The notes under the pieces were generated by a model. The model ran no database searches. It was given only the letters and a program-made list of their open reading frames with translations, and was not told the origin of the DNA. This document shows, piece after piece, positions 1,394 through 63,933 of a stretch of DNA of 64,000 nucleotides. Each line of letters opens with the position of its first letter. Position 1 is the stretch's first letter. The DNA comes from Burkholderiales bacterium (GTDB lineage Bacteria; Pseudomonadota; Gammaproteobacteria; Burkholderiales; Burkholderiaceae_C): positions 1 to 64,000 of the forward strand of contig JACPUE010000052.1 of NCBI GenBank assembly GCA_016192425.1. The letters are read 5' to 3'. The position numbers were made by a program, and so were the translations under genes.

Positions 1394-1747
1394 ATGCGCG
1401 CCGTTCATACCCTGATGCTGCTGGCCCTGGCCAGCGCCCCCGCTCTCGCTCAAAATACCGGTCAAAATGCCGCCCAAGGCAGTAACGACGGGCGTGAGCA
1501 GCTATCAAAACAAGAGCAATCTGCCGACCGCCTGAACCAGCGCACCGAGCGCATCCGCGTAGAAGACGGCGGCAGCCGCATCGACGAACTGCGCGTGGGC
1601 GGGCAGACACAGAGCATTACCGTGCAGCCCAAGGTCGGCACCCTGCCCGAGTACGAGGTGCAGCCCTCTGATGGCGTGCGCAACCGCCCGCGCAACGGTG
1701 CCGAGTCCACCACCGGCGCCCGCGTGTGGAACGTGATGAAGTTCTGA
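1394..1747 (+). CDS. DUF2782-like small secreted protein
   Basis: A 117-residue protein with a clear N-terminal signal peptide (hydrophobic stretch [13 protein letters not shown], cleavage predicted after the Ala-Leu-Ala near residue 19). The mature part is charged and glutamine-rich (residues 25-60), followed by a short conserved-looking region ([15 protein letters not shown]) and a C terminus ending VWNVMKF. Proteins of this kind (DUF2782) commonly sit beside homoserine kinase in betaproteobacteria, as here (91 bp upstream of thrB). The function is unknown; a periplasmic location is likely. A copy of the dispersed short repeat (1497-1520) encodes residues around EQLSKQEQS. Confidence 0.8.
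1497..1520 (+). repeat. Dispersed short repeat, copy inside the DUF2782 gene
   Basis: This 24-bp segment begins agcagctatcaaaaca and ends gcaat. It matches the copy at 36854-36877 (lolA) at 22 of 24 positions. It lies within a coding sequence and is translated as part of a glutamine/serine-rich stretch. Confidence 0.7.
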
Positions 1748-1838
1748 CCCCGCCCCCGCACTGCTGGCCGGGCCTGCAAGGCATGCGCCCGGCCCTGGCA
1801 ACCTCTCTCCCCCGATTCCTGCATTTTCCTTCCCACCG

Positions 1839-2792
1839 ATGGCCGTATTCACCCCAGTCTCCGAAGCCGAGGCCGGCAAGCTCCTGAAAGCACTCCAACT
1901 GGGCACGCTGCATGCCCTGCGCGGCATTGAAGGCGGCATCGAGAACACCAACTACTTCGTCACCTGCGATGCGGGCGAGTTCGTGCTCACGCTGTTCGAG
2001 CGCCTCACCGCCGAGCAACTGCCCTTTTACCTCCACCTGATGAAGCACCTGGCGCACAAGGGCATCCCCGTGCCCGACCCGCGCGCCAACGCGGCAGGCG
2101 ACATCCTGCACACCGTGTGCGGCAAGCCCGCCGCCGTGGTCAACCGCCTGGCGGGCCGCAGCCAGTTGGCGCCCCAGGCCGTGCACTGCGCCGCCGTGGG
2201 CGGCATGCTGGCGCGCATGCACCTGGCCGGGCGCGACTACGACCGCCAGCAGCCCAACCTGCGCGGCCTGCCCTGGTGGAACGAGACCGTGCCCGTGGTG
2301 CTGCCGCACATCGGCGCCGAACAGGCAGCACTGTTGCGCGCCGAGCTGGCCTACCAGAATCACATTGCCGCATCGCCCGCCTACGCTGCGCTGCCGCGCG
2401 GCCCGGTGCATGCCGACCTGTTCCGCGACAACGTGATGTTCGAGGGCGAGCAGCTCACCGGCTTCTTCGACTTCTACTTTGCGGGCGTGGACACCTGGCT
2501 GTTCGACCTGGCCGTGTGCCTGAACGACTGGTGCATCGACCTGCCCACGGGCCGCCACGATGCAGCGCGCGCCAGCGCCCTGCTGGACGCCTACCAGGCC
2601 GTGCGCCCGCTCACCGCCGCCGAGCGCGAGCTGCTGCCCGCCATGGCGCGTGCCGGGGCGCTGCGCTTCTGGATCTCGCGCCTGTGGGACTTTTACCTGC
2701 CGCGCGAGGCCGCCATGCTCACGCCGCACGACCCCACGCACTTTGAACGCGTACTGCGCGAACGGGTAGAGCACCCCGTGAAAGTGGAATGA
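1839..2792 (+). CDS. thrB: Homoserine kinase, APH-fold type
   Basis: Phosphorylates L-homoserine with ATP to O-phosphohomoserine in threonine biosynthesis (cytoplasm). The 317-residue protein belongs to the aminoglycoside-phosphotransferase fold family of ThrB found in Pseudomonas and Burkholderiales, not the GHMP family. Seen: the N-terminal nucleotide-binding region GGIENTNYF (about residues 31-39), FVLTLFE, the catalytic loop [11 protein letters not shown] (about residues 190-200; D is the catalytic base, N the metal ligand), and the metal-binding FDFYFAG after it. Length and start MAVFTPVS are typical. It follows the DUF2782 gene and precedes the BPSS1780 membrane protein; co-transcription is possible. 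Confidence 0.95.
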
Positions 2793-2795
2793 CAC

Positions 2796-2857
2796 CCCCC
2801 TGTGTCGCTTCGCGCCTTCCCCCCGCTCTCGCAGCGCTGTGCGCTGCGGACAGGGAG
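2796..2857. repeat. GC-rich intergenic palindromic repeat, copy 1
   Basis: The segment begins ccccctg, then cgcttcgcgccttcccccc and a ctct-containing hairpin part. The reverse complement of 37003-37064 has the same order of blocks (ccccctgaggcgct, cgcgccttccccc, ctct, an internal hairpin), so the two are copies of one intergenic element. Here it lies between thrB and the downstream membrane protein, where it could act as a structured 3' end. Confidence 0.55.
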
Positions 2858-2993
2858 ACGCTCCCAGCGCCCGGATTACTCGGTACTGGCGACCCTTGCG
2901 CGGGAGCCCTGGCTTAGGCCACCCCGCTCCAAGCGTTGTGGGTACTGCGAGCACGGGTTCAATCAATCACCTGATGGCTTTACCATCCCCCGT

Positions 2994-4113: not shown

Positions 4114-6570
4114 TCAATCCACCACCGTAAGCTTTGCCACCGACAGCGCCAGCCACTTGGTGCCGTGGCGTGCAAAGGCGACCTGGGCACGGGCGTCGTC
4201 GCCCTGGCCTTCGATGGCCAGCACCTTGCCTTCGCCAAACTTGGTGTGGAACACGGCCAGGCCCACGCGCAGGCCGTGCGCCGGGGGGGCTTTCTGAACC
4301 GGCACGGGGGGGCTGGCAAAGGTCTCTGTCTTGAAGCCAAATGGGCCTCTTGCGCCCGTGGAATAAGCGCCACCAGCTCCTGTTTTAGGAGCAAAAGAGC
4401 CAAAGCCCTGCTGCTTGGGGGTGATCCACTTGAGGCATTCCTCGGGCAGCTCGTCGAAGAAGCGGCTGCGCACGTTGTAGCGCGTCTGCCCATGCAGCAG
4501 CCGGGTTTGCGAGTGGCTGAGATACAGGCGTTTGCGGGCACGGGTGATGGCCACGTACATCAGGCGGCGCTCTTCTTCCAGGCCGTCGCGGTCAGACGCT
4601 GCGTTGTCGTGCGGGAACAGGCCCTCTTCCAGACCGCCGATGAACACGGCGTCAAACTCCAGGCCCTTGCTGGCGTGCACGGTCATGAGCTGCACGGCGT
4701 CCTGCCCGGCCTGGGCCTGGTTGTCGCCCGCCTCCAGCGCGGCGTGCGTGAGGAAGGCCACCAGGGGCGAGAGGGTTTCGCCAGTGTCGGCGTCGATGAT
4801 GCCGCCGGGGCCAGTGGGCTTGAGCGGCGCGTCCAGCACGGGCGCATTCGGGTCCAGCCCCTGGCTGGCCGGGCTTTGCGTGAGCGGCTGGCCGTGCTCG
4901 TCCAGCGGCAGGGCCACGGCGTCGCGGCCAAAGCCTTCTTGCGTGACGAAGCTTTCGGCAGCGTTGACGAGTTCTTCCAGGTTCTCGATACGGTCCTGGC
5001 CTTCGCGGTCGGCACGGAAATGCGCGATCAGGCCGCTGGATTCGAGCATCTGCTCGATGATGCTGCGCAGCGACAGGCCCTGGGTCTGTTCACGCAGTAC
5101 GTCGATCAGCGCCACAAAGGCCTTGAAGTTGGTACCCGCCTTGCCGGGCACGGCACTCACGGCGTCGTGCAGCGAGCAGCCTGCGCTGCGGGCCGCGTCC
5201 TGCAGCACCTCGATGCTGCGCGCACCGATGCCGCGCGGCGGAAAGTTGACCACGCGCAGAAAGCTGGTGTCGTCGTTGGGGTTCTCCAGCAGGCGCAGGT
5301 AGGCCAGTGCATGCTTGATTTCGGCGCGCTCAAAGAAGCGCAGGCCGCCGTACACACGGTAGGGCACGGCGGCGTTGAACAGGGCCGATTCGATGACCCG
5401 GCTTTGCGCGTTGCTGCGGTAGAGCACGGCAATTTCTTTGCGCTCCAGGCCGTCGCTCTTCACCAGTTGCCGGATCTCATCGACCATCCACTGCGCCTCG
5501 GCCAGGTCGGTGCTGGCCTCGTACACGCGCACGGGCTCGCCCGCGCCCTGCGTGGTGCGCAGGTTCTTGCCCAGGCGGCGGCTGTTGTGGCCGATGAGCT
5601 GGTTGGCCGAGTCGAGGATGTTGCTGTAGCTGCGGTAGTTCTGCTCCAGCTTGATCTGGTGCTGCACATCGAACTCGCGCACAAAGTCGGCCATGTTGCC
5701 CACGCGCGCACCGCGGAAGGCGTAGATGCTCTGGTCGTCGTCGCCCACGGCCATGACGCTGGCATGCGTGTGCAGGCGGCCATCCACCTCGTCGCCCGCC
5801 ATCTGCTTGAGCCACAGGTACTGCAGGCGGTTGGTGTCCTGGAACTCATCGACCAGGATGTGCGCAAAGCGCCGCTGGTAGTGTGCGCGCAGGGGGTCGT
5901 TGTCGCGCAGCAGCTCGTAGCTGCGCAGCATCAGCTCGCCAAAATCGACCACGCCTTCGCGCTGGCATTGGGCCTCGTACAGCTCGTACAGCTCGACCTT
6001 CTTGCGGCTGTCGCTGTCGTGCGCGGGCACATCGCGCGGGCGCAGGCCCTCTTCCTTGCAGTTGGCGATGAAATACTGCAGCTGCTTGGGCGGAAAGCGC
6101 TCCTCGTCCACGTTGAACTGCTTGCACAGGCGCTTGATGGCCGAGAGCTGGTCCTGCGTGTCCAGGATCTGGAAGGCCTGCGGCAGGCCCGCCGCCTGGT
6201 GGTGCGCGCGCAGCAGGCGGTTGCACAGGCCATGGAAAGTGCCGATCCACATGCCGCGCACGTTGACGGGCAGCATGGCCGTGAGGCGCGCCACCATTTC
6301 CTTGGCCGCCTTGTTGGTGAAGGTGACGGCCAGCAGGCCGCCGGGCGTGGCCTGGCCGGTCGAGAGCAGCCAGGCAATGCGCGTGGTGAGCACACGCGTC
6401 TTGCCCGAGCCCGCCCCGGCCAGGATGAGTGCGTGGCCCGCTGGCAGCGTGACGGCGGCAAGCTGTTCGGGGTTGAGGTGCGCCAGCAGCGGCTGGCTGG
6501 CGGCAGCGGCCCCTGGGGCGGCGCTGGGCACACCGGGCAGCGTGCGCGAAATCGGGTCTTGTGGGAACAT
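4114..6570 (-). CDS. uvrD: UvrD/PcrA-type ATP-dependent DNA helicase
   Basis: Superfamily 1A 3'-5' helicase of nucleotide excision and mismatch repair. The 818-residue product has all expected motifs: Q-motif region LNPEQLAAV (32-40), Walker A AGAGSGKT (51-58), Ia FTNKAAKEM, II VDEFQDT (about 245), III GDDDQSIYAFRGA, IV QNYRS, V LMTVHASKGLEFD and VI VAITRARKRLYL. The C terminus is Tudor-like (GLAVFHTKFGEGKVLAIEG), as in UvrD/PcrA. Start MFPQDPISR at 6570 gives family-typical length; a much longer upstream frame is antisense to guaC and was rejected. A repeat-like segment (4374-4395) encodes residues in the variable linker before the Tudor-like end. Confidence 0.95.
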   Translation of the reverse strand: MFPQDPISRTLPGVPSAAPGAAAASQPLLAHLNPEQLAAVTLPAGHALILAGAGSGKTRVLTTRIAWLLSTGQATPGGLLAVTFTNKAAKEMVARLTAMLPVNVRGMWIGTFHGLCNRLLRAHHQAAGLPQAFQILDTQDQLSAIKRLCKQFNVDEERFPPKQLQYFIANCKEEGLRPRDVPAHDSDSRKKVELYELYEAQCQREGVVDFGELMLRSYELLRDNDPLRAHYQRRFAHILVDEFQDTNRLQYLWLKQMAGDEVDGRLHTHASVMAVGDDDQSIYAFRGARVGNMADFVREFDVQHQIKLEQNYRSYSNILDSANQLIGHNSRRLGKNLRTTQGAGEPVRVYEASTDLAEAQWMVDEIRQLVKSDGLERKEIAVLYRSNAQSRVIESALFNAAVPYRVYGGLRFFERAEIKHALAYLRLLENPNDDTSFLRVVNFPPRGIGARSIEVLQDAARSAGCSLHDAVSAVPGKAGTNFKAFVALIDVLREQTQGLSLRSIIEQMLESSGLIAHFRADREGQDRIENLEELVNAAESFVTQEGFGRDAVALPLDEHGQPLTQSPASQGLDPNAPVLDAPLKPTGPGGIIDADTGETLSPLVAFLTHAALEAGDNQAQAGQDAVQLMTVHASKGLEFDAVFIGGLEEGLFPHDNAASDRDGLEEERRLMYVAITRARKRLYLSHSQTRLLHGQTRYNVRSRFFDELPEECLKWITPKQQGFGSFAPKTGAGGAYSTGARGPFGFKTETFASPPVPVQKAPPAHGLRVGLAVFHTKFGEGKVLAIEGQGDDARAQVAFARHGTKWLALSVAKLTVVD
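4374..4395. repeat. Repeat relative inside uvrD
   Basis: Plus strand reads agctcctgttttaggagc followed by aaaa. It matches 19749-19770 in phhB at 18 of 22 positions. It falls in the poorly conserved linker region of UvrD. Membership in the same family as the agcagctat repeats is inference. Confidence 0.45.
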
Positions 6571-19696: not shown

Positions 19697-20031
19697 CATC
19701 CATGTTGAAGCAAAAAGACTGGTCCACGCAGGCGCGACGAGCGCTGACAGCTCCTGAATTGGTAGCAAAACTCGCCCAACTGGAAGGCTGGCAGCTCCAG
19801 GGCGACGGCGCCGATGTGGCCATTGCCAAGACCTTCCGCTTTGCCAACTACCACGAGACCCTGGCCTTCGTGAACGCGGTGGCCTTCATCGCACACACGC
19901 AGGACCACCACCCCGAACTCTCGGTGCACTACGACCGCTGCGTGGTGCGCTTCAACACCCACGACGTGGGCGGCATCTCCGGCACCGACATCGACTGCGC
20001 CCAGCGCGTGGATGCACTGCTGGCCCCCTGA
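19693..20031 (+). CDS. phhB: 4a-hydroxytetrahydrobiopterin dehydratase
   Basis: Regenerates the pterin cofactor after aromatic-amino-acid hydroxylation (pterin-4a-carbinolamine dehydratase). The 112-residue protein has the family signature TFRFANYHETLAFVNAVA, AHTQDHHPELSVHYDR (catalytic histidines) and FNTHDVGGISGTDIDCA. The ATG overlaps the protease stop by four bases; a second in-frame ATG (19702) is possible. No phenylalanine hydroxylase gene is nearby. A repeat relative (19749-19770) encodes TAPELVAKLAQ in the poorly conserved N-terminal helix. Confidence 0.93.
   Translation: MTSMLKQKDWSTQARRALTAPELVAKLAQLEGWQLQGDGADVAIAKTFRFANYHETLAFVNAVAFIAHTQDHHPELSVHYDRCVVRFNTHDVGGISGTDIDCAQRVDALLAP
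19749..19770. repeat. Repeat relative inside phhB
   Basis: Reads agctcctgaattggtagc then aaaa; it agrees with the uvrD segment 4374-4395 at 18 of 22 positions and shares the tagcaa end of the main repeat family. Confidence 0.45.
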
Positions 20032-20045: not shown

Positions 20046-20990
20046 ATGGCGTCCCGCAGCACGCAGCACGAAGGCCTGGTGGTCGCCACCCATGGCCGCC
20101 ACTGCGTGGTGGAAACGGGCGACGGCCAGCAGCGCATCTGCCACCCGCGCGGCAAGAAAAGCCAGGCCGTGGTGGGCGACCGCGTGCTGTGGCAAAGCGC
20201 CGCACCGGGCCAGGGCGACGAGGGCACCATCGAGCAGGTGCAGGCGCGGCGCAACCTGTTCTACCGGCAGGACGAGATCCGCACCAAGTCCTTTGCGGCC
20301 AACATCGACCAGGTGCTGATCCTGATTGCGGCCGAGCCGGTGTTTTCAGAAAGCCAGCTTGCACGCGCCCTGATTGCCGCCGAGGCTGCCCACATTGCAC
20401 CGCTGATTGCGCTGAACAAGCGCGACCTGGCCGAACCCTTTGCGCGTGCCTGGGAGCGCCTGGCCCCCTACCGCCGCATGGGCGGCGCGCACCCCTACGA
20501 GGTGCTGGCGCTGGGCCTGGCCCAGGCCGATGCGGACGACCGCGCTACGCTGCAGCGCTGCCTGCAGGGCAAGGCCACGCTGGTGCTGGGCCCTTCGGGG
20601 TCGGGCAAGAGCACGCTGATCAACCTGCTGGTGCCCGGCGCACAGGTGCAGACGGGCGAGATATCCCAGGCGCTCAACTCCGGCAAACACACCACCACGG
20701 CCACGCGCTGGTACTGGGTGGACCGCACCAGCGGCACGGCGCTGATCGACTCGCCGGGCTTCCAGGAATTTGGCCTGCACCACATTGCACCCACGCAACT
20801 GGCGGCCTGCATGCCCGACATTGCAGCCCATGCCAGCGCCTGCCGCTTCTACAACTGCACACACCTGCACGAGCCGGGCTGCGGGGTCATTGCCGCAACC
20901 CAGGAGGCTGGCAACGGCGACGGAATCAGCGCAAACCGCTACAAAATATATAGCGAACTATTTGCCGAACTGTCGCAGACGCGGTACTAA
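20046..20990 (+). CDS. rsgA: Ribosome small-subunit-dependent GTPase A
   Basis: A circularly permuted GTPase that assists late 30S subunit maturation. The 314-residue protein has an N-terminal OB fold (residues 10-90), then G4 NKRD, G1 GPSGSGKSTLIN (about 180-191), G3 DSPGFQEFG, and a zinc knuckle with CRFYNCTHLHEPGC (about 262-275). Start MASRSTQHEG at 20046, 14 bp after the phhB stop, suggests co-transcription with the protease and phhB. The extreme C terminus (NRYKIYSELFAEL) overlaps a repeat relative. Confidence 0.95.
   Translation: MASRSTQHEGLVVATHGRHCVVETGDGQQRICHPRGKKSQAVVGDRVLWQSAAPGQGDEGTIEQVQARRNLFYRQDEIRTKSFAANIDQVLILIAAEPVFSESQLARALIAAEAAHIAPLIALNKRDLAEPFARAWERLAPYRRMGGAHPYEVLALGLAQADADDRATLQRCLQGKATLVLGPSGSGKSTLINLLVPGAQVQTGEISQALNSGKHTTTATRWYWVDRTSGTALIDSPGFQEFGLHHIAPTQLAACMPDIAAHASACRFYNCTHLHEPGCGVIAATQEAGNGDGISANRYKIYSELFAELSQTRY
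20938..20954. repeat. Short repeat relative at the rsgA 3' end
   Basis: gctacaaaatatatagc has the gcta(c)-aaaa-ata-tagc spacing of the dispersed family. It is short, so membership is tentative. Confidence 0.3.
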
Positions 20991-22072: not shown

Positions 22073-22114
22073 GGGGATTTCTTTAGTAAAAATGGGCTAT
22101 ACCGCAATATCCAT

Positions 22115-22145
22115 AAGCGGTAGCAGCTATTATTTTTATAGCAAG
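22115..22145. repeat. Dispersed short repeat, intergenic copy
   Basis: Begins aagcggtagcagctat and ends atagcaag. It matches the copy at 29544-29574 at 25 of 31 positions. It lies between the hypothetical gene and the CobD/CbiB-like gene, ending one base before the latter's stop codon. Confidence 0.65.
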
Positions 22146-22146
22146 C

Positions 22147-23133
22147 TCAACCCAGCAGGTTGGCCAGGGTCAGCAGGGCGAGCAACAGCATCCATACCAC
22201 CACCGAGCGCCAGACCAGGCCCACCACGCTGCGCAGGTGGGCCACCTCGGGCTCGCGGCCGGGGGTGCTTTCGCTCTCGCCGATGGCCGCATCCACCTGG
22301 AAGCCCTGGGTGGACAGTGGCTGCATGCGCGCCTTGAGCGCCTCGCCGCCCAGGCGCACGTTGATGGCCCCCGAGGTGGCGGCAAGGATCACGCCGTCGT
22401 TGTCGTTGGGAAAGCGCTGCGCGTGAAAGCGCCAGCCCTCGATGGCTTCCTCGAAGCTGCCCACCACGGCAAAGCACAGCGCCGTCAGGCGTGCGGGCAC
22501 CCAGTCAATGGCCGTCCAGGCCTGTGCGGTGGCCTGGCGCAATGCCGGGCTGGCGCGCTGCAGGCTTTCGTCGCCCCGGTCGGCCCAGTAGCGCGAGACG
22601 AATTCGGCCATGCGGTACAGCACCGCGCCCGTGGGGCCCAGGCCCAGCGCGGCCAGCACGGAAGTCCAGGCCAGCACGCCGAACATGTGGCGGTGCGCGG
22701 CCAGCACGGAGTATTCGATCACGTGGCGCACCACCTCGCTGCGCGGCAGATCGCCCACGTCCACCTGCTGCCAATCGGCCAGGCGCTCGCGGGCGCGGGC
22801 CTCGTCGCCCATCTCCAGCGCATCGCGGATGCCCGTGAAATGGTGGCTGAACTGGCGGAACCCCAGGGTGATGTAAAGCACGGCGACGCTCCAGAACACC
22901 GCCACGGGCCAGCCCATCCACCACATCAGCGCCCAGTGCACAGCCAGCACAAAGAGGGGCGGCACCAGCACCGCCAGCCCCCAGGCCACCCAGCCGTGGT
23001 GCGGGCCGCCAGCGTCAAAGTTGCGGCTGACCGACAGCGCCCAGGCACGCAGCCCCCCGTGGATCGGGTTGCTGCGCGCCAGGGGGCGTGCCTGCTCGAT
23101 CAGCAGGGCAAACAGGATGGCGAAGAAACTCAT
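22147..23133 (-). CDS. CobD/CbiB-like integral membrane protein
   Basis: A 328-residue membrane protein. Seen: MSFFAILFALLIEQARPL at the N terminus, four to five hydrophobic segments (near 1-18, 45-68, 72-92, 148-172 and the C-terminal 305-325), and conserved-looking WTAIDWVPARLTALCFAVVGSFEEAIEGW and FPNDNDGVILAATSGAINVRLGG, which match the CobD/CbiB family core. No other cobalamin genes are near, and betaproteobacterial relatives outside cob clusters are often annotated only as CobD/CbiB-like. A role in adenosylcobinamide synthesis is possible but not supported by context. Confidence 0.8.
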   Translation of the reverse strand: MSFFAILFALLIEQARPLARSNPIHGGLRAWALSVSRNFDAGGPHHGWVAWGLAVLVPPLFVLAVHWALMWWMGWPVAVFWSVAVLYITLGFRQFSHHFTGIRDALEMGDEARARERLADWQQVDVGDLPRSEVVRHVIEYSVLAAHRHMFGVLAWTSVLAALGLGPTGAVLYRMAEFVSRYWADRGDESLQRASPALRQATAQAWTAIDWVPARLTALCFAVVGSFEEAIEGWRFHAQRFPNDNDGVILAATSGAINVRLGGEALKARMQPLSTQGFQVDAAIGESESTPGREPEVAHLRSVVGLVWRSVVVWMLLLALLTLANLLG

Positions 23134-26792: not shown

Positions 26793-27245
26793 ATGAAAAG
26801 CAAGACCGTGGCCGCCTGGCTGGCCTTCCTGGGGGGGCCGCTGGGCCTGCACCGCTTTTACCTGCACGGGCTGGGCGACCCGCTGGGCTGGCTGCTGCCC
26901 CTGCCCACGGCACTGGGCCTGTACGGCATGGAACGGGTGCAGCAGCACGGGCAGGACGACCACCTGAGCTGGCTGCTCATTCCCTTGCTGGGCTTTACGA
27001 TTGCAGCTTGCGCCCTGCGCGCCATTCTGTACGCGCTGACCCCGCCCGAACGCTGGAACGCCCGGCACAACCCTGGCGCAGCCCCCGACGCCCCCGCAGG
27101 CCGCACGCACTGGGGTACCGTGTGCGCCATCGTAGCCGCACTGATGGTGGGCACCGGGGTGCTGATGGCCAGCCTGGCGTTCAGCTTTCAGCGGTATTTC
27201 GAGTACCAGGGCGAGGAAGCGCGCAAGATCTCGCAGATGCGCTGA
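26793..27245 (+). CDS. TM2-domain-like small membrane protein
   Basis: A 150-residue membrane protein. The N-terminal AAWLAFLGGPLGLHRFYL followed by GLGDPLGWLLPLP is the TM2 pattern (helix, G-x-hydrophobic-G-x-HRFYLG, helix). Further hydrophobic stretches lie near residues 60-80 and 110-135. The function is unknown. It probably shares a transcript with the GNAT gene and is convergent with the phosphate-transporter operon. Confidence 0.75.
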   Translation: MKSKTVAAWLAFLGGPLGLHRFYLHGLGDPLGWLLPLPTALGLYGMERVQQHGQDDHLSWLLIPLLGFTIAACALRAILYALTPPERWNARHNPGAAPDAPAGRTHWGTVCAIVAALMVGTGVLMASLAFSFQRYFEYQGEEARKISQMR

Positions 27246-27257
27246 CCCCCATACGAA

Positions 27258-27298
27258 AATAGCACGCAGCGCCCGCCTATCAAGCGCTACGTGCTATT
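27258..27298. repeat. Dispersed repeat in hairpin form between convergent genes
   Basis: aatagcacgcagcgc (27258-27272) and gcgctacgtgctatt (27284-27298) form a 15-bp stem with one mismatch, followed by gttttt on the plus strand. It therefore also resembles a bidirectional terminator. Its 16-bp block aagcgctacgtgctat occurs exactly, inverted, inside rarA (34216-34231). Confidence 0.65.
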
Positions 27299-27313
27299 GT
27301 TTTTGCAGCACCC

Positions 27314-28324
27314 TCAATAGAGCTGCAAGCTCACCCAATACGCCACGGCAGCCACGAATGCGCTGGCCGGGATGGTCAGAATCCAGGCCCAGACGATATT
27401 GCCCGCCACCCCCCAGCGCACGGCGCTGGCGCGCTGCGTGGAGCCCACACCGACGATGGCGCCCGTGATGGTGTGCGTGGTGGACACGGGAATGCCCAGC
27501 ACGGTGGCTAGGAACAAGGTCATTGCTCCACCCGTTTCAGCACAAAAGCCGCCCACGGGCTTGAGCTTGGTGATCTTCTGGCCCATGGTCTTGACGATGC
27601 GCCAGCCACCGAACATGGTGCCCAGGCCAATGGCTGCGTAGCAGATCAGGATGGTCCAGGTGGGGGGCGAGGAATCTGCAGACGAACTGTAGCCCGTGGC
27701 AATGAGTAGCAGCCAGATGATGCCAATGGTTTTTTGCGCGTCGTTGCCGCCGTGGCCCAGGCTGTAGGCCCCGGCAGACAGCAACTGCAAGCGCCGGAAC
27801 CACTGGTCCACGCTGCTGGGGCGCGAGCGCCGGAAGAGCCAGGCCACAAGCACCATCATCAGCGAGCCGAGCAGAAAACCCAGCAGGGGCGAGACGAAGA
27901 TGAAGGCCACCGTCTTGAAAATGCCCTTGGCGACGAGTGCGCTGGCCCCGGCCTTGGCAATGACTGCGCCCACAATGCCGCCAATCAGCGCATGCGAGGA
28001 ACTGCTGGGAATGCCGTAGTACCAGGTGATGAAGTTCCAGGTGATGGCGCCCACGAGCGCCCCGAAGACCACATGGGTATCGACCACACCGGGCTCGACG
28101 ATGCCCTTGCCGATGGTGGCCGCCACGCTCAGCTGGAAAATGAAGATGGCGACGAAGTTGAAGAACGCCGCAAACACCACGGCCTGCGCCGGGCGCAGCA
28201 CGCCGGTAGAGACAACCGTGGCAATGGAGTTGGCTGCGTCGTGGAAGCCGTTCATGAAGTCGAACAGCACGGCCAGCGCCACCAGCAGCACAATGACCCA
28301 GAGGGCGGTTTGTACGGTTTCCAT
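27314..28324 (-). CDS. pit: Low-affinity inorganic phosphate transporter (Pit family)
   Basis: A 336-residue inner-membrane phosphate:cation symporter. Both halves of the inverted-repeat family signature are present: FDFMNGFHDAANSIATVVSTG (about 22-42) and later SAGAYSLGHGGNDAQKTIG (about 190-208). About ten hydrophobic segments. Length is in the short-Pit range (330-420). It lies 24 bp after the DUF47 gene, the classic pairing in which the DUF47 protein supports or controls Pit. Confidence 0.95.
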   Translation of the reverse strand: METVQTALWVIVLLVALAVLFDFMNGFHDAANSIATVVSTGVLRPAQAVVFAAFFNFVAIFIFQLSVAATIGKGIVEPGVVDTHVVFGALVGAITWNFITWYYGIPSSSSHALIGGIVGAVIAKAGASALVAKGIFKTVAFIFVSPLLGFLLGSLMMVLVAWLFRRSRPSSVDQWFRRLQLLSAGAYSLGHGGNDAQKTIGIIWLLLIATGYSSSADSSPPTWTILICYAAIGLGTMFGGWRIVKTMGQKITKLKPVGGFCAETGGAMTLFLATVLGIPVSTTHTITGAIVGVGSTQRASAVRWGVAGNIVWAWILTIPASAFVAAVAYWVSLQLY

Positions 28325-29501: not shown

Positions 29502-29542
29502 GGCAAAAATACCAATAAAAATGGCCTGAAAGGCAATACCAT

Positions 29543-29574
29543 CAAGCGCTAGCAGCTATGAATAGTATAGCAAT
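29543..29574. repeat. Dispersed short repeat, intergenic full-length copy
   Basis: Reads caagcgctagcagctat and ends tatagcaat (32 bp). It is 28 of 32 identical to the inverted copy at 46930-46961. It lies between the DUF486 start and the livF end. Confidence 0.75.
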
Positions 29575-29590
29575 CAGGCCCCATGCAGCG

Positions 29591-33434: not shown

Positions 33435-34763
33435 TTATTTCACGCCTGGTGCATCCTTGGGCAACGGCATTCCAGCCAGGGCATTGCGCTGACGCAAATC
33501 GTCGAGCTTGTCTGCAATGCGGATCTCCAGCCCGCGCCGCACCGGCTGGTAAAAGTCGGGGGCCTCCATGCCCTCGGGCAGGTAGTTCTCGCCAGCGGCA
33601 AAGCCGCCTTCCTCGTCGTGCGCGTAGCGGTAGCCCTTGCCGTAGTCCAACTCCTTCATGAGCTTGGTGGGCGCGTTGCGCAGGTGCATGGGCACGGGGC
33701 GCGTGCCATCCTGCTTCACGAAAGCACGCGCCGCGTTGTAGGCCTTGTAGACGGCGTTGGACTTGGGTGCCACGGCCAGGTAGACCACGCATTCGGCCAG
33801 CGCCAGCTCGCCCTCGGGGCTGCCCAGGCGCTCGTACACCTCGGCGGCATCCAGCGCCAGGCGCAGCGCGCGCGGGTCGGCCAGGCCCACATCCTCGGCA
33901 GCCATGCGCACCATGCGCCGGGCCATGTAGCGCGGGTCGGCGCCGCCGTCGAGCATGCGCACCAGCCAGTACAGCGCGGCGTCGGGGTCGGAGCCGCGCA
34001 CCGACTTGTGCAGCGCGCTGATGGTGTCGTAGAACTGCTCGCCGCCCTTGTCGTAGCGGCGCAGGCGCTCGCCCAGCACCTTCAGCAGCCAGGCATCGGT
34101 GATTTCAGCCAGCCCCTCCTGCGCCGCCGCCATCTCCAGCGTCTCCAGCGTGTTGAGCAGGCGCCGCGCATCGCCGTCGGCATAGGCCACGAGGCGCTCG
34201 ATTGCTTCGCTTTCTATAGCACGTAGCGCTTTCTGCGATTGCGCCAGAGCCACAATCTGCTTCAAATCATCGCTGGAGAGCGGCTGCAGCACGTACACCG
34301 CCGCGCGCGACAGCAGGGCCGAGTTGACCTCGAACGAGGGGTTCTCGGTGGTCGCGCCGATGAAGGTGAACAGGCCGCTTTCCACATGCGGCAAAAAGGC
34401 GTCCTGCTGGCTTTTGTTGAAGCGGTGCACCTCGTCCACGAAGACGATGGTGCGCTGCTGCATCAGGCCGTCGCGCGCGCTTTGCGCCCGCTCTACGGCG
34501 TCGCGGATGTCTTTCACCCCACCCAGCACGGCACTGATGCTGATGAACTGCGCATCGAACGCATCGGCCATGAGGCGCGCAATGGTGGTCTTGCCCACCC
34601 CCGGCGGCCCCCACAGGATGCAGCTGTGCGGCCGGCCCGACTCGAACGCCAGCCGCAGCGGCATGCCCGGCCCCAGCACATGCTGCTGGCCGATGACTTC
34701 GGAAAGCTGGCGCGGGCGCAGGCGCTCGGCCAGGGGCTGGTGGGGGGTGGCAGGCGGTTTCAC
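33435..34763 (-). CDS. rarA: Replication-associated recombination protein A (MgsA/RarA)
   Basis: An AAA+ clamp-loader-like ATPase acting at stalled forks. The 442-residue protein shows PLAERLRPRQLSEVIGQ near the N terminus, Walker A GPPGVGKTTIA (about 52-62), Walker B FVDEVHRFNKSQQD, sensor 1 ATTENPSFEVN, and the C-terminal RarA domain with HKSVRGSDPDAALYWLVRML and KGYRYAHDEEGG. A GTG start at 34763 gives the normal N terminus; upstream ATG codons would overlap the divergent DUF488 gene. Residues QKALRAIESEAIE are encoded by a repeat copy. Confidence 0.93.
   Translation of the reverse strand: MKPPATPHQPLAERLRPRQLSEVIGQQHVLGPGMPLRLAFESGRPHSCILWGPPGVGKTTIARLMADAFDAQFISISAVLGGVKDIRDAVERAQSARDGLMQQRTIVFVDEVHRFNKSQQDAFLPHVESGLFTFIGATTENPSFEVNSALLSRAAVYVLQPLSSDDLKQIVALAQSQKALRAIESEAIERLVAYADGDARRLLNTLETLEMAAAQEGLAEITDAWLLKVLGERLRRYDKGGEQFYDTISALHKSVRGSDPDAALYWLVRMLDGGADPRYMARRMVRMAAEDVGLADPRALRLALDAAEVYERLGSPEGELALAECVVYLAVAPKSNAVYKAYNAARAFVKQDGTRPVPMHLRNAPTKLMKELDYGKGYRYAHDEEGGFAAGENYLPEGMEAPDFYQPVRRGLEIRIADKLDDLRQRNALAGMPLPKDAPGVK
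34213..34232. repeat. Dispersed repeat block inside rarA
   Basis: Contains atagcacgtagcgctt (34216-34231), identical over 16 bp to the inverted arm of the hairpin at 27282-27297. It is translated as part of an alpha-helical lid segment of RarA. Confidence 0.6.
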
Positions 34764-36249: not shown

Positions 36250-36256
36250 AGCCCGC

Positions 36257-36889
36257 CTATTGCTTGAGCACGTCCGCCCCTGCCGGGGGCTTGAACTGGA
36301 AGGTGGCCGCCGGCAGCTGCGGGTTGGCCTGCAGCTTGGCAAAGCGCAGGGTCGAGCGCTGGCCAAAGCTGTCGAGGATCTCCAGCACCGCCAGTTGCCC
36401 CTCGCGGAAACCCACGCGCACGTTCTGCAACTGCCCTTCCTTGGCCTTGGGAACCGCCTGCACCCACTCCAGGCCGTCCTGTGCGGGGGTAGATTCGAGC
36501 GTGAAGTCGGCGCGCAGCGCCTGCAGGTCGGGCGCCGAGGCCAGCAGCGCCGCGGGCGTGCTGCCCAGGGCCTGCGCCTGCGGGCGCTGGGTGACCTGGT
36601 TCAGGTCCACGTCGTAGAACCAGAGCGTCTGGCCGTCGGCGACGATGGTTTGCTCGAACGGCTTCTGGTACACAAAGCGGAAACGGCCCGGCCGCTGGAA
36701 TTCGAAGCTGCCGCTGGACGTCTTCTGGCGTGCGGCCTGCCCGTCCTTGGGTGGCGTGGTGACCACCTGCGTGAAATCGGCCCGCGCCGATTGCGTGGCC
36801 TTCATGAAGTTTTCAAGGTCTTTCAGGCCATCAGCGCTCGCCCACTGGGCGCAAGCAGCTATCAAAACAGTAGCAATTTTTTTCTTCAC
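36257..36889 (-). CDS. lolA: Outer-membrane lipoprotein carrier protein LolA
   Basis: Periplasmic chaperone that carries lipoproteins from LolCDE to LolB. The 210-residue precursor has a signal peptide (KKKIATVLIAACAQWASA) and typical body: LENFMKATQSARADFTQVV, SSGSFEFQRPGRFRFVYQKPFEQTIVADGQTLWFYD (residues about 60-95, the LolA core) and FRFVY. Start is GTG at 36889 with AGGA five bases upstream. The signal peptide coding region is largely formed by a dispersed repeat copy. It lies directly downstream of ftsK on the same strand (about 180 bp), a widely conserved order. Confidence 0.95.
   Translation of the reverse strand: MKKKIATVLIAACAQWASADGLKDLENFMKATQSARADFTQVVTTPPKDGQAARQKTSSGSFEFQRPGRFRFVYQKPFEQTIVADGQTLWFYDVDLNQVTQRPQAQALGSTPAALLASAPDLQALRADFTLESTPAQDGLEWVQAVPKAKEGQLQNVRVGFREGQLAVLEILDSFGQRSTLRFAKLQANPQLPAATFQFKPPAGADVLKQ
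36849..36877. repeat. Dispersed repeat inside the lolA signal-peptide region
   Basis: A 29-bp segment beginning gcgcaagcagctatcaaaac. It is 28 of 29 identical to the inverted copy at 58269-58297 in rsmB. In lolA it is read as ATVLIAAC-type signal-peptide sequence, in rsmB the other strand is read as AQAAIKTVA. Confidence 0.75.
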
Positions 36890-37002
36890 AAGAGTCCTTC
36901 ATCACGCTTGGGATAACACCTGGTGCTTGAAACGGACGCTGCCCTAGCCAGCAACCGCCGCGCAAGGGCCGCCATCACCTCGCAATCCGTGCGCTGGCGG
37001 TG

Positions 37003-37064
37003 TCCCCCTTCCACATCGCGCAGCGATGTCAGAGAAGGGGGAAGGCGCGCAGCGCCTCAGGGGG
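37003..37064. repeat. GC-rich intergenic palindromic repeat, copy 2
   Basis: Between ftsK and lolA. Contains tcccccttccacatcgcgc, agaagggggaaggcgcgc and ctcaggggga; the reverse complement has the same block order as 2796-2857. Several nested hairpins are possible (ccccctt/aaggggg; gcgcgc). Confidence 0.6.
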
Positions 37065-37068
37065 ATGC

Positions 37069-46073: not shown

Positions 46074-46946
46074 TCAGGGCCTGCGCGGCCCCAGGCCGGC
46101 AGCCATGGCCACCGACAGGATGGTAGGCCGCAGCACCAGGTCGTCGTAGTAGGCGGCGGGGTTCTCGGCAAAATCTGCATCGACATAGAAGTCGTTGGGG
46201 CTAGCAGAGCGCAAAGGCACCGTGCTGCGGTTGATGTTCTCCAGCGGCCCTGGCGGCGCCCCGACGGATGTGCCCAGGTAGTTGCCGTCGGCGCTGAACC
46301 CGCCAAAGCGGTTGGGGCCGTGGCTGATCAGGAAGTAGGCGACCCCGTTGCCGTTGGCCTTGCTGGCCAACTCGGCCGCAGACCCCACGGCGCAGGCTGC
46401 GGCATTGCACGCACGGAACCCCCTTGTGGACAACCAGGTGTTGACGGCACCGGGATTGGTTGGATCCAAAGCCTGCATGTTCATGCCGTCCGCCAGGGTC
46501 AACGAGCCCGCCACAGCCGCCCCGCCCCACACCCGGTAGCTGACCATGGTGTTCCAGGCATCCATTGCATCGGTTTGTGATACGCCCAGGCTGCGCCAGG
46601 GCACCACGCCGTTGGTCAAGGCCAGTGCCGTGCAGGCTCCACCGGCTGCGAGCTCCAGCCCCTGGTTGGCGTTGCCTGGGGGCAAGTCGCCATCGGCCGG
46701 ACAAGGCAAGCGCCGGTTTGCCAGCACAAACCGCACCATCGCCTGCTCCAGCGCTTCGAGCTTGGCGCGGGTTTCCTTGCGGCGGCTGTTGTCCAGCATC
46801 ACGTTGGTGGCTGGCAGGAACACCGCTGCCAGCAGGCCCACGATGAGCAGCACCAGCGCCATCTCCACCAGCGAAAAGCCGCGCACCCTGGCATCGATCC
46901 GGGGCAAAGCAGAGGGAGCCGAAAGATTGATTGCTATCATTTTCAT
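46074..46946 (-). CDS. Large prepilin, paralogue of the next gene
   Basis: A 290-residue prepilin. Leader ends ARVRG, mature part begins FSLVEMALVLLIVGLLAAVFLP with Glu +5. RLPCPADGDLPPG ... NGVVPWRSLGVSQTDAMDAWNTMVSYRVWGG (about 78-140) shares its order of motifs with the gene downstream, so the two arose by duplication or share a domain family. Cysteines RACNAAACAVG suggest disulfides. The start codon (ATGAAAATG) lies inside a dispersed repeat and has no good ribosome-binding site, so the true start may differ. Confidence 0.8.
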   Translation of the reverse strand: MKMIAINLSAPSALPRIDARVRGFSLVEMALVLLIVGLLAAVFLPATNVMLDNSRRKETRAKLEALEQAMVRFVLANRRLPCPADGDLPPGNANQGLELAAGGACTALALTNGVVPWRSLGVSQTDAMDAWNTMVSYRVWGGAAVAGSLTLADGMNMQALDPTNPGAVNTWLSTRGFRACNAAACAVGSAAELASKANGNGVAYFLISHGPNRFGGFSADGNYLGTSVGAPPGPLENINRSTVPLRSASPNDFYVDADFAENPAAYYDDLVLRPTILSVAMAAGLGPRRP

Positions 46947-46961
46947 AGCTACTAGCGCTTG
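46930..46961. repeat. Dispersed short repeat over the start of a prepilin gene
   Basis: 32 bp, the reverse complement beginning caagcgctagtagctatg and ending gatagcaat. 28 of 32 positions match 29543-29574. It contains the start codon of the prepilin gene; another gcgctag/ctagcgc element follows at 46970. Confidence 0.75.
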
Positions 46962-46980
46962 TAAACAGGGCGCTAGAGCC

Positions 46981-47466
46981 CTATTTTTTATGAAAATATC
47001 CTGGCGCCACCACGTCGTTCAGAACGGTACCGGTGTCGCTGACCTGCTGCCCAGGGCGCAGCACGATGTCGTTCTCGCCGCTCAGGCGCAGGCGCACTTC
47101 GCCATGGTCGATGTGCACGGTGCGGCCTGCGTAGGGCTCGCCGTGCTGCAGCATCTGGCCGTTGATCCAGGCGGTGGCGTTCTTGCGGCCCAGGGCCAGG
47201 CCGTCCAGCTGAAAGACGGGGGGCGGTGCCTGCGGAGCCAGGGCGGCAGTGGCTGCGGCCTGGTCCGCACCGCCAGGAGGCAGTTTGCGCGCGGCCTCGA
47301 TGCTGGCGCGCTGCTGCGGGGTGTAGAACACGCGCGGCCACAGCGCGGCGGCATCGGGGGCGCTGGGCAGTGGCGCTGCGCTGGCAGCGCCCGCCGGGCC
47401 CGCCAGCAGGCAGCCCAGCGCAGCCAGTGCGGCGGCAAGGTGGATGGGCGCGGGAGCATGGGGCAT
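46981..47466 (-). CDS. MshK-like pilus assembly protein
   Basis: A 161-residue secreted protein: signal peptide (LAAALAALGCLLAGPAGA), then RVFYTPQQRASIEAARK, a linker, and FQLDGLALGRKNATAWINGQMLQHGE ... HGEVRLRLSGENDIVLRPGQQV. The VFYTPQQRA... / AWINGQ... pattern matches MshK, a PilP-like periplasmic partner of the MSHA platform. The position after mshJ supports this. Ends in VAPGYFHKK. Confidence 0.75.
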   Translation of the reverse strand: MPHAPAPIHLAAALAALGCLLAGPAGAASAAPLPSAPDAAALWPRVFYTPQQRASIEAARKLPPGGADQAAATAALAPQAPPPVFQLDGLALGRKNATAWINGQMLQHGEPYAGRTVHIDHGEVRLRLSGENDIVLRPGQQVSDTGTVLNDVVAPGYFHKK

Positions 47467-57520: not shown

Positions 57521-58840
57521 TTACTTACGCTGCCAGACGGCGGCGAAGAAGCCGTCGGTCTGGTGGCGGTGCGGCCATAGGCGCAGGTAGCGGCTGCCGG
57601 AATCGCCGCCGCTGCACAGGCTGGCGGCCTCGGGCAGCTTGAGCTGGGCCAGCAGTTCGCCCGCATCCAGCGGCTCGAAATCGCGGTGGGCCTGGGTGAA
57701 GGCCTCGGCGATGGCCTCGTTCTCCTGCGGCAGCATGCTGCAGGTGGCATAGACCAGGCGTCCGCCCGATTTGGGCAGGCGGGCGGCGCTCTCCAGGATG
57801 GCGGCCTGCTTGGCCACCAGTTCCTCCAGCGCCTGGGGCGACTGGCGCCACTTGAGGTCGGGGTTGCGGCGCAGCGTGCCCAGGCCGGAACAGGGGGCAT
57901 CGACCAGCACGCGGTCGATCTTGCCCGCCAGGCGCTTGACGCGCTCGTCGCGCTCGTGGGCAATGGCCGCCGGGTGCACGTTGGACAGCCCGCTGCGCGC
58001 CAGCCGCGGCTTGAGCGCGTCGAGCCGGTGGGCCGACACGTCAAACGCGTACAGCCGCCCGGTGCTGCGCATGGTAGCGCCGATCGCCAGGGTCTTGCCC
58101 CCGGCGCCGGCGCAGAAGTCCACCACCATTTCGCCACGCTTGGCGTCCAGCAGCAGGGCCAGGAGCTGCGAGCCTTCGTCCTGCACCTCGATGGCGCCGC
58201 GCTCGAACGCGGGCAGCTTGGTCAGTGCGGGCTTGCCCTGCACCCGCAGGCCCCAGGGGGAGTACGGCGTTGCTACTGTTTTGATAGCTGCTTGCGCAAG
58301 CTCCTTCTGCACTTGGTCGCGTTTTTCCTTCAAGACATTGACGCGCAGGTCCAGCGGTGCGCTGGTGGACAAGGCCTGCACCAGGGGCCAGAACTCCGCA
58401 CCCAGCTGTGCCTTGAGCGGCTCTACCAGCCATTCGGGCAGGTTGTGGCGGTGGCGCTCCAGCAGGTCGTCCGGGGCGATGGTGTCGCACTGGTCCAGCC
58501 ACTGCTTTTCGCGGTCGCTCAGGGCCGACTTGAGGAAGTCGCGCGGGCCGTGCTGGGCCTGGGGGTTGGCGCGGCGCGCTTCTTCGTCCTGCCACTGGGC
58601 AAAGCCCAGGATGGCCAGGCGCCGCTCCTTGGGGCCGCTGCCCGAGGGGGCCAGGTGGTCGAACAGCAACTTTTTGCGGAGCACGGCATAGGCCGTTTCG
58701 GCCAGTGCGGCGCGCTCGCGCGGGCCGAGCTGGCGGTGGTCACGAAAAAAGCGGGACACCACGGCGTCGGCCGGGTGTTCCAGGGTCAGGGTCAGCCGCA
58801 CCAGTTCGGCGCAGGCTTGCAAAAGGGCGTTGGGATGCAT
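57521..58840 (-). CDS. rsmB: RsmB-type rRNA (cytosine-C5)-methyltransferase
   Basis: A 439-residue SAM-dependent m5C methyltransferase of the RsmB/NOP family. An N-terminal NusB-like helical region (DAVVSRFFRDHRQLGPRERAAL) and an RRM-like middle precede the SAM site VVDFCAGAGGKTLAIGA (about 262-278), motif IV VDAPCSGLGTLRRNPD (general-acid Cys) and motif VI ATCSMLPQENE (nucleophile Cys). Target C967 of 16S rRNA is likely but other NOP-family targets are possible. A 29-bp repeat copy encodes ELAQAAIKTVATP just before the catalytic domain. Confidence 0.9.
   Translation of the reverse strand: MHPNALLQACAELVRLTLTLEHPADAVVSRFFRDHRQLGPRERAALAETAYAVLRKKLLFDHLAPSGSGPKERRLAILGFAQWQDEEARRANPQAQHGPRDFLKSALSDREKQWLDQCDTIAPDDLLERHRHNLPEWLVEPLKAQLGAEFWPLVQALSTSAPLDLRVNVLKEKRDQVQKELAQAAIKTVATPYSPWGLRVQGKPALTKLPAFERGAIEVQDEGSQLLALLLDAKRGEMVVDFCAGAGGKTLAIGATMRSTGRLYAFDVSAHRLDALKPRLARSGLSNVHPAAIAHERDERVKRLAGKIDRVLVDAPCSGLGTLRRNPDLKWRQSPQALEELVAKQAAILESAARLPKSGGRLVYATCSMLPQENEAIAEAFTQAHRDFEPLDAGELLAQLKLPEAASLCSGGDSGSRYLRLWPHRHQTDGFFAAVWQRK
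58269..58297. repeat. Dispersed repeat inside rsmB
   Basis: gttgctactgttttgatagc followed by tgcttgcgc; its reverse complement is 28 of 29 identical to 36849-36877 in lolA. It lies in a helical linker of the methyltransferase. Confidence 0.75.
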
Positions 58841-62594: not shown

Positions 62595-62701
62595 CCCTCG
62601 TCTCGCAAAGCGCGCAATCGGGCCAGTGTAGGCAAGCCCCTGGCCGCCAGGGCGGCGAACTGGCGGGTGTTCGCCCGGCTTTTCCAGGCTTGGAACCGGG
62701 C

Positions 62702-62723: not shown

Positions 62724-62815
62724 CAGGACAAACCCCCTTGACATGCCCCGCCAAGAATGAAGCCAGGCTCCCAGGCCCCCTGGCGGCCAACAACCCTGGA
62801 AAGAAAGGAATGACT

Positions 62816-63829
62816 ATGACGAGCATCTCAAGCGTCAGCAGCAGTGCATGGTCGGGCATGGGCATGCAACGCAGCCAGCGTGCAGCCCCATCGCCCGAGC
62901 GCCTGATGTCCAAGATCGACACCGACCAAAGCGGCGGCGTCAACGACACCGAACTGCAAGGCCTGCTGGACAAGGTGGCCCAGAAAACCGGCACGCAGCT
63001 CAGCGCCTCCGACGTGCTGACCCAGTTCGACGCCGATGGCAACGGCCAGCTCAGCAGCGACGAGCTGGGCAAGACGATGCAAAGCATCCTGCCCCCGCCC
63101 TCGACTATGGACTTTGCGCAGCAGCGCGCCTCCGGCAGCAGCAGCGCCGACGGCACCGCCAACACTGGCGAGGCGGGCGACGACCTGTTTGCCAAGGTGG
63201 ACGCAGACGGCGACAACGCCATCAGCGCCACCGAACTGCAGGCCCTGCTGGAAGCCATGTCCGGCGGCACCGCCAGCCAGACCGGCGTGAGCAGCGACGA
63301 CGTCTTCGCCGCGCTGGACACCGACGGCGACGGCAGCCTCACCCAGGCCGAGTTCGATGCCGGCCGCCCCGCAAGCCAGGGCGGCCATGGCGGCGGCGTT
63401 GGCGGGCCGGGCGGCATGCCACCCCCGCCCCCGGCAGGCGCAGCGCAGGGCAGCGACAGCAGCACGGCGTCTGCGCAAGACGATGCGCTGGACACCAACG
63501 GCGACGGTGTGGTGTCGCTGAGCGAGCGGCTCGCGGGCCAAACGTCCAGCGTGCAGCAGGACGCCGTTGCGGCGCTGTTCCAATCCATCGACACCGATGG
63601 CGACCAGCAGATCAGCAGCAGCGAATCCAGCGCCTTCATCCAGGCCCTGAGCTCGGCCTATGGAAGCAGCGCCACCAGCAGCACCAGCGCCCAGGACGGC
63701 GCCAGCACCGCCAGCAGCCCGCGTGGCGAGCTGATGCACCTGGCAGAGCTGGCCCGCCAGCGCTACGCCGAAGCTGCCAACGCGTGGAGCAGCAGCACCT
63801 CCAGCAGCGCACTCAGCGCAGTGGCTTGA
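62816..63829 (+). CDS. Calcium-binding protein with six EF-hand loops
   Basis: A 337-residue, Ser/Gly/Asp-rich acidic protein. Six 12-residue EF-hand loops start with Asp and end with Glu: 35-46 (DTDQSGGVNDTE), 72-83, 129-140, 168-179, 226-237 (DTNGDGVVSLSE) and 259-270 (DTDGDQQISSSE). A Gly/Pro-rich hinge (GGMPPPPPAG) lies between loops 4 and 5. No standard signal peptide is seen; the N terminus (SISSVSSSAWSGMG) and the low-complexity C terminus resemble proteins exported by other routes. Start at 62816 has AAGGA at good spacing; ATG at 62810 is too close to it. Calcium buffering or sensing is likely; XopAW-like effectors share this look, but export is unproven. Confidence 0.8.
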   Translation: MTSISSVSSSAWSGMGMQRSQRAAPSPERLMSKIDTDQSGGVNDTELQGLLDKVAQKTGTQLSASDVLTQFDADGNGQLSSDELGKTMQSILPPPSTMDFAQQRASGSSSADGTANTGEAGDDLFAKVDADGDNAISATELQALLEAMSGGTASQTGVSSDDVFAALDTDGDGSLTQAEFDAGRPASQGGHGGGVGGPGGMPPPPPAGAAQGSDSSTASAQDDALDTNGDGVVSLSERLAGQTSSVQQDAVAALFQSIDTDGDQQISSSESSAFIQALSSAYGSSATSSTSAQDGASTASSPRGELMHLAELARQRYAEAANAWSSSTSSSALSAVA

Positions 63830-63840
63830 GGCAAGCCTGT

Positions 63841-63866
63841 CCCGCCGTGCGGATGTGCACGGCGGG
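63841..63866 (+). terminator. Hairpin after the EF-hand gene
   Basis: cccgccgtgc-ggatgt-gcacggcggg is a perfect 10-bp stem, 11 bp after the stop. No T run, but the site fits transcription termination. Confidence 0.55.
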
Positions 63867-63904
63867 AATTCAAGCAAAAATCAGCGATAGCGCCCGTATT
63901 TATT

Positions 63905-63933
63905 GCGCTAACAGCTACAATTTTGATAGCAAT
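63905..63933. repeat. Dispersed repeat over the purN 3' end
   Basis: gcgctaacagctacaatttt followed by gatagcaat. It follows the block order of the family (gcgcta-agcta-aa-tagcaat) and encodes the last residues of PurN (LLSKL and stop) on the other strand. Confidence 0.6.

Follow-up and report, generated by a model that had tools for sequence, protein, structure and literature searches.

A 71-bp motif kept by constraint on the DNA at fixed chromosomal sites in a Comamonadaceae-type family

Introduction

Repetitive extragenic palindromic (REP) sequences, bacterial interspersed mosaic elements (BIMEs) and the Rickettsia palindromic elements are imperfect palindromes that occur in many copies, those of Rickettsia also in genes. 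HIP1 of cyanobacteria is an octamer of unknown function that is dispersed through the genome and also found within genes. The DNA uptake sequences (DUS) of the Neisseriaceae and the uptake signal sequences (USS) of the Pasteurellaceae have a short core and number in the hundreds to thousands, within genes and in gaps, at permissive places and in distinct dialects; the DUS literature also describes drive, an origin without insertion of a mobile unit, and an expected erosion when specificity is lost (PMC3630211, PMC1939737, PMC2397512). Here, we describe a 71-bp motif that occurs 12 times in a 64,000-nucleotide stretch ("the window") from a Burkholderiales bacterium (positions 1 to 64,000 of contig JACPUE010000052.1, assembly GCA_016192425.1). 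Like REP, BIME and the Rickettsia elements, it is an imperfect palindrome in many copies, but it showed no insertion at the gene sites tested; like HIP1, it is dispersed and also lies in genes, but it is far longer than an octamer. It shares copy number, placement and dialects with DUS and USS, but differs from them in its length (71 bp, 54 bits), its dyad, its lower density of about one copy per 6 kb, and in belonging to another family.

Two bipartite sequences appeared in a 2017 list as a "potential novel motif": one is GCTTAT(N)5AAGCG, from Acidovorax ebreus, with 114 copies of which 107 were intergenic (PMC5217627, Table 7), the other ATAGCT(N)22CAAAAG, from Polaromonas naphthalenivorans (PMC5217627). 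Our three samples contain 24 occurrences of the Acidovorax pair, every one of them within a copy of the 71-bp motif, and the pair, like the motif, prefers convergent over divergent gaps. It represents only an inner fragment, however, and was described as mainly intergenic, with no function assigned. We saw no occurrence of the Polaromonas pair in the sequences tested. We found no description of the whole motif in open PubMed Central papers, and PMC5217627 is the only earlier trace that we recognized. Another repeat, the beta-proteobacterial repeat element BRE, is about 90 bp long, has 69% GC in Bordetella, is often arranged in tandem, and is also described from Comamonadaceae, with some copies in coding sequence (PMC3110155). 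The motif shares the family and the coding copies with BRE, but is 71 bp long, has about 44% GC, is mostly dispersed, and drops to background outside the family; on these differences, judged by description rather than letter by letter, we rejected an identity with BRE.

Results and Discussion

Definition of the motif

The original prediction had proposed a family of 22–32 bp repeats at no fewer than twelve dispersed sites in the window, which derives from a 3.67-Mb draft genome. A position weight matrix was learned on 458 kb (the window and 20 further stretches from its genome), yielding 71 ungapped columns with 54 bits and 76 matches; copies later scored by the matrix were part of its training set. 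An earlier matrix had drifted to palindromic symmetry and caught AT-rich false matches, and was replaced by an oriented one. The consensus, AGTTTGCTATTATTTTGATAGCTGCTTGCGCTTGATCTACGGGCGCTGGAGGCCAATTTGACTCAAAATCT (about 44% GC by our own count), is an imperfect dyad with an outer GCTAT-N7-ATAGC block, an inner inverted repeat, whose main dialect reads GCGCTT...AAGCGC, and A/T tracts that may run in either polarity. The 12 window matches corresponded one-to-one to the predicted sites, with none extra. The family was therefore real, but its unit is about 71 bp, the shorter blocks being its best-conserved part. The base-by-base pair comparisons (28/29, 28/32, 22/24 and 16/16) were all exact, although the 16-bp pair is inverted, an orientation that the prediction had left unstated.

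The background rate at the matrix threshold was about 2 per Mb in simulations. At scores of at least 30, the window held 12 matches, against a mean of 0.07 and a maximum of 1 in 60 codon-preserving shuffles. Three weak copies (at 19701, 20889 and 27244) scored 30–41, far above background, and the other nine 50–79. A 21-base pattern, allowing at most one mismatch, gave 259 matches in the whole genome versus 4 for its reversed control, and bacteria of this kind carry hundreds of motif copies. Densities from the own-genome stretches are biased upward, because these were picked near known matches. Gene boundaries were taken from our own gene caller, without curated annotation.

Constraint on the DNA

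Constraint on the DNA itself maintains the motif at fixed positions in the chromosome. Within the genus, it was retained (score of at least 15) in 189 of 203 alignable pairs of orthologous sites, counted in both directions among six genomes and so not independent; another 232 of 435 pairs were dropped, 190 because the fetched stretch held no ortholog, 41 with one flank and 1 that was odd. The comparison of orthologous copies used 158 ungapped pairs among the 189, and the score test 136 divergent ones; the 14 low scorers among the 203 fall outside this test. In these 136 pairs an average of 17.5 of the 71 positions differed, yet the mean score was 50.2 compared to 10.9 expected under random substitution, and every pair scored above that expectation. 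Identity was 87% at high-information positions and 66% at low-information ones. Orthologs were 74% alike over the whole element versus 82% for the flanks, indicating that the constraint acts on the motif positions and not on every base.

Within genes, synonymous resampling never reached the real score (0 of 200 for each of 21 copies; mean 57.2 real versus 4.3 resampled). Synonymous codons thus fit the motif in 21/21 in-gene copies, and constraint on the protein alone is insufficient, as had been predicted. Together with the score retention and with the replacement described below, this result supports the proposal of a bound motif that is constrained as DNA, for which DNA uptake had been one of the options. 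Copies within one genome were on average 51% alike, with a maximum of 75%, while orthologs of one site were about 72–87% alike. Since paralogs are less alike than orthologs, the copies must be old and individual, with no recent homogenization, and the suggested spread of the in-gene copies by gene conversion was not borne out.

Replacement of sequence within genes

At the four in-gene sites tested, in RsmB, RarA, ThiL and LeuRS, the motif overwrote existing sequence and was not inserted. Motif-less proteins differed in length by −12 to +3 residues, never by +24. For RsmB, where presence was judged by eye, the copy was found in 18 of 22 congeners, and the four without it (the motif-poor G002, G004 and G007 and the motif-bearing G005) showed no gap; seven order-level outgroups lacked it with at most one residue of length difference. 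Motif-bearing RarA loci scored about 18 to 59, seven intermediate ones 7 to 22, and the rest −4 to −50, most of them without a change in length. The rarA site was occupied in several other genera and vacant without a gap in most motif-less ones. In Polaromonas CF318, RarA has a three-residue insertion like that of the motif-bearing relatives, and its DNA has drifted off the motif.

ThiL and LeuRS were each compared in 30 genomes. The motif-poor ThiL proteins were −6 to +3 residues different from that of the window's genome, leaving aside a broken match in the motif-poor G310. (This match, in L288, is split over several frames, possibly by a frameshift or an assembly error.) For LeuRS, 8 of the 12 motif-poor proteins had no length difference, and the others were at −2, −4, −11 and −12. 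A 28-residue gap in the LeuRS of G006 and G011 is a genuine insertion of another repeat, demonstrating that the method can see insertions. The motif-poor genomes lacked the motif at all of these gene sites, save for residual scores of 0 to 23 in G239. Simultaneous absence of the motif from every site tested points to a trans-acting factor.

The predicted alternative of mobile DNA therefore found no support for the in-gene copies, since no insertion was found at the four gene sites. Comparison with relatives gave a mixed picture between genes. Three intergenic gaps, at 27245 and 29501 (compared with the motif-less Diaphorobacter, L031) and at L015:8033 (compared with L068), were no longer than those of the motif-less relative, and others, considered below, were. 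Occupied sites longer than vacant ones, as would be expected of REP sequences or miniature inverted-repeat transposable elements (MITEs), were thus not seen in genes and only in part between them.

Distribution and dialects

Judged by RarA, the window's named relatives belong to the Comamonadaceae, among them Diaphorobacter, Variovorax, Limnohabitans, Rhodoferax and Comamonas, and the motif is limited to this Comamonadaceae-type family, in which it is patchily distributed. Across 398 genomes of the family, counts of the 21-base pattern ranged from 0 to 638, with at least one match in 241. In other families of the order, none of 194 genomes exceeded 4 matches, the level of the reversed control. 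These counts detect the GCGC dialect only; G187 counts 3 yet carries another dialect. Within genus g1, G002, G004 and G007 had 2–4 matches versus 33–440 in the other 23 genomes, a natural experiment in which members of one genus have either about 300 matches or 2–4. Genera g84, g101 and g137 likewise contain both motif-rich and motif-poor members. Some lineages lack the motif throughout their genomes, and decayed traces of it are left at certain sites. In a LeuRS tree covering 31 genomes, presence changes, by gain or by loss, at least six times on well-supported branches and eight times in all; this tree is from a single gene and splits genus g1, and the presence label showed hardly more clustering than shuffled labels did (67 of 500 shuffles were as low).

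The dialect of the motif differs genome-wide between lineages. The window's genome, G003 and G053 have the GCGCTT...AAGCGC inner repeat in common. In G058 (g36) the inner repeat is GGCCGGC...GCCGGC, so that both arms differ together from the main dialect, while the arms in G263 and G069 (g47) resemble TAGGCA...CTGGCTA. The outer blocks of these three genomes keep the same 71-column register. The rarA, leuS and thiL sites of g47 carry the g47 dialect, with the amino acids recoded, and score 67 to 85 with a g47 matrix; the lowest of the g47 sites was rarA of G187, at 50.

Placement of the copies

Placement was analyzed for 191 copies in three genomes (the window's own, G003 and G053), of which 133 were intergenic, 43 within genes and 15 at gene edges. 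The stretches from G003 and G053 were spread evenly, while those from G058, G263 and G069 were picked at matches. In the window's genome, 46 of 76 copies (60%) lay in the 14% of the DNA not called coding. Around the G003 chromosome, copies were present in 19 of 20 sampled stretches, with no obvious concentration near ori or ter. Among gaps of at least 50 bp, copies were found in 23 of 66 convergent, 87 of 343 tandem and 14 of 99 divergent ones. The strands were balanced, both in tandem gaps (46 sense and 41 antisense) and in genes (23 and 20). Two of the six reading frames accounted for 32 of the 43 in-gene copies, as expected because the other frames hold stop codons. The consensus had few counterparts among mobile-element records, with 1 match in 50,697 phage records at E up to 0.1 and 4 in 72,556 plasmid records at E up to 0.01; these searches had low sensitivity, since individual copies depart strongly from the consensus.

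The 21 in-gene copies of the own-genome sample lie in genes including recC, topA, dnaX, uvrD, rarA, leuS, metG, rsmB, rsgA, thiL and subunits of 2-oxoacid dehydrogenases. DNA-maintenance genes, towards which uptake sequences are known to be biased, make up 5 of the 21 as a raw count. Read as protein, the motif accounts for peptide strings such as AQAAIKTIA within unrelated proteins, and for part of the Pfam family DUF1010.

Nature of the motif

We consider it an even proposition that the motif is a recognition signal kept by a putative DNA-binding factor and working most like DNA uptake sequences. The copies would be instances of one 71-bp double-stranded DNA signal, recognized by a diffusible, sequence-specific DNA-binding factor of the cell. 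The driving force would be preferential transmission, or selection, through recognition of self DNA, and its most likely route would be a biased uptake of DNA with subsequent allelic replacement, as for the DUS of the Neisseriaceae and Pasteurellaceae. We rank such an uptake-like signal first, at roughly half of the total likelihood, because dialects, permissive placement, an insertion-free origin and the expected erosion are published traits of DUS. Over-representation in one lineage, an origin without insertion (at the four gene sites) and genome-wide dialects are shared with DUS; still, we do not file the motif as a DUS, a class of which preferential uptake is a criterion. We likewise hold it evenly balanced that this is a family-wide self-DNA recognition of new architecture: a 71-bp double-stranded DNA signal at several hundred fixed places per genome, strong enough for the conserved enzymes RarA, LeuRS, ThiL and RsmB to have been recoded to its sequence, with dialects that separate genera and a wholesale absence from some relatives. 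If so, recognition at the DNA level has moulded proteins throughout a large family of bacteria, barriers to gene exchange in the family may follow the motif dialects, and the family would be either the third group of bacteria with uptake-like signals all over the genome or the bearer of a new class of chromosome signal.

Several observations weigh against an uptake-like signal. At 71 bp and 54 bits, the motif far exceeds the length of known uptake sequences, and its information content is far above the need of about 600 sites. Some sites are vacant in motif-rich genomes: thiL in G176 and G217, leuS in G159 and G123, rarA in G106, G277, G391, G375, G377 and G217, and rsmB in G005. ComEC was present in all but one of 50 genomes, both motif-bearing and motif-less, and the one without it was the incomplete, motif-poor G007; GspH-type gene counts were 1–5 in motif-rich and motif-poor genomes alike (40 genomes). 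The spacing of the copies was not significantly even (lower coefficients of variation seen once came from largely syntenic stretches, which are not independent), and there was no significant deficit of copies in low-GC windows (P 0.06 in G053). In the motif-less G002, two intergenic sites were shorter by 75–95 bp and a third, weak one by 23 bp; these could reflect insertion, or deletion in G002. In 123 comparisons over 14 gene pairs, the median gap difference was +87 with the motif versus +9 for motif-free gaps, a test dominated by the lolA gap with its miscalled start and containing about five independent informative intergenic sites.

A binding site for a chromosome-organizing or recombination protein, such as a nucleoid protein, a condensin-type loader or a gyrase-like wrapping site, kept by ordinary selection without uptake, is our second-ranked and more tentative explanation. 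The dyad-like form, the length of about 70 bp and the free polarity of the A/T tracts suggest that the site is wrapped or read by its shape, and the lack of strand bias and the presence of copies nearly all around the G003 chromosome are consistent with such a role. However, absence from many genomes, often beside motif-rich congeners, would be odd for a core function, the G003 stretches showed no obvious ori/ter concentration, and no protein of this kind is known to us to use a site of 71 bp and 54 bits, although we ran no search aimed at one. The imperfect dyad, the excess of intergenic copies and the two sites that are shorter by about one motif length in G002 would also suit a miniature mobile palindromic repeat of the REP, MITE or Rickettsia type that was inserted and then retained. 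We regard this as unlikely: the four in-gene sites show no insertion where the real one in LeuRS was visible, the sample holds no young identical copies, paralogs being at most 75% alike, and some sites carry another dialect. Gene conversion, or a process like that of retrons or diversity-generating retroelements, in which copies overwrite their targets by way of single-stranded DNA or RNA, could explain replacement without a motif-length change and, by spreading dialects, the other dialect at the same gene sites in g47. Because paralogs are less alike than orthologs and show no recent homogenization, we nevertheless consider it very improbable.

We judge it equally far-fetched that the motif acts as a transcribed hairpin, that is, a terminator or an element of RNA processing or mRNA stability. 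In its favor, copies are commoner in convergent than in divergent gaps, and one of four folded sequences was unusually stable (z of −4.0, the other three −0.7 to −1.4). Against it, strand numbers are similar in tandem gaps and in genes, 43 of the 191 copies lie within genes, and no Rfam family reached threshold at the window copies. Across the best dyad, the Watson–Crick excess in the 191 copies was 0.00–0.03, that is, no pairing covariation. Instead, the strongest linkage was between neighboring positions, where AAAA swaps with TTTT, TT with CC and AA with GG. With neither strand preference nor compensatory pairing, an RNA hairpin element was rejected, along with the RNA processing that had been among the predicted roles. 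Strand balance and the lack of pairing covariation favor recognition of double-stranded DNA over a hairpin, and the linkage pattern suggests that the A/T tracts are probably read by shape.

Copies in the window

Some of the window copies lie inside genes. That at 1452..1522 (− strand, score 51.5) is within a small coding sequence (1394–1747, +), that at 4327..4397 (−, 55.5) within a uvrD-type helicase gene (4114–6570, −), and a weaker copy at 20889..20959 (−, 30.5) within rsgA (20046–20990, +); the rsgA copy is degraded in G003, with the length unchanged. The rarA gene (33435–34763, −) contains the copy at 34199..34269 (+, 50.4), and rsmB (57521–58840, −) that at 58267..58337 (+, 54.8), where sequence was replaced and not inserted. 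RarA itself occurs in two deep versions in the family. That of G002, G004, G204, G244, G287, G399, G377 and G217 (8 of 30 genomes) is only 64–67% identical to the window's; six of its eight carriers are motif-poor and two motif-rich.

At two sites the motif bears on a gene start. The copy at 36809..36879 (−, 62.6) encodes the N-terminal end of LolA (36256–36889, −), with the sequence KKIATVLIAACAQ..., which is likely the signal peptide of the protein; the gene caller had set the lolA start too late. A high-scoring copy near a frame start in L020, at about 15304, resembles the lolA case by eye. The weaker copy at 19701..19771 (−, 34.7) lies at the 5′ end of the 4a-hydroxytetrahydrobiopterin dehydratase gene, where the gene caller left it in a 62-bp gap; this gap is probably coding, because it is identical in four congeners.

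The remaining copies are between genes. The copy at 22077..22147 (−, 67.2) fills a 74-bp gap between two co-oriented genes, and the weaker one at 27244..27314 (−, 41.1) a 68-bp gap between convergent genes, which measures 76 bp in the motif-less Diaphorobacter. The intergenic copy at 29506..29576 (−, 68.9) is in a gap of 122 bp, compared to 134 bp in the same Diaphorobacter and 117 bp in G003, which lacks the motif at this site. The best copy in the window, at 46928..46998 (+, 78.7), lies between two genes and overlaps one of them by 18 bases, and the last, at 63865..63935 (−, 69.4), is downstream of a gene that ends at 63829.

Other repeats and DUF1010

The window also contains a second, GC-rich inverted pair at 2793–2903 and 36958–37067, 78–79% complementary with arms of 63 and 52 nt, which, by description, possibly belongs to the BRE family (PMC3110155). 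The repeat inserted in LeuRS of G006 and G011 looks somewhat similar to this pair.

A DUF1010 frame was found in L159 (1352–1642), between dfrA12 and aadA2 of a class 1 integron; this cassette is known as gcuF or orfF. A motif copy at 1485–1555 (score 59) lies within it, and the first part of Pfam DUF1010 is here the motif read as protein, which suggests, from the sequence, a Comamonadaceae origin of the cassette. DUF1010 was considered as the candidate factor and rejected, being in part a read-through of the motif and present also in the motif-poor G004. Clusters of DUF1010 frames were seen in G005, G004 and G176.

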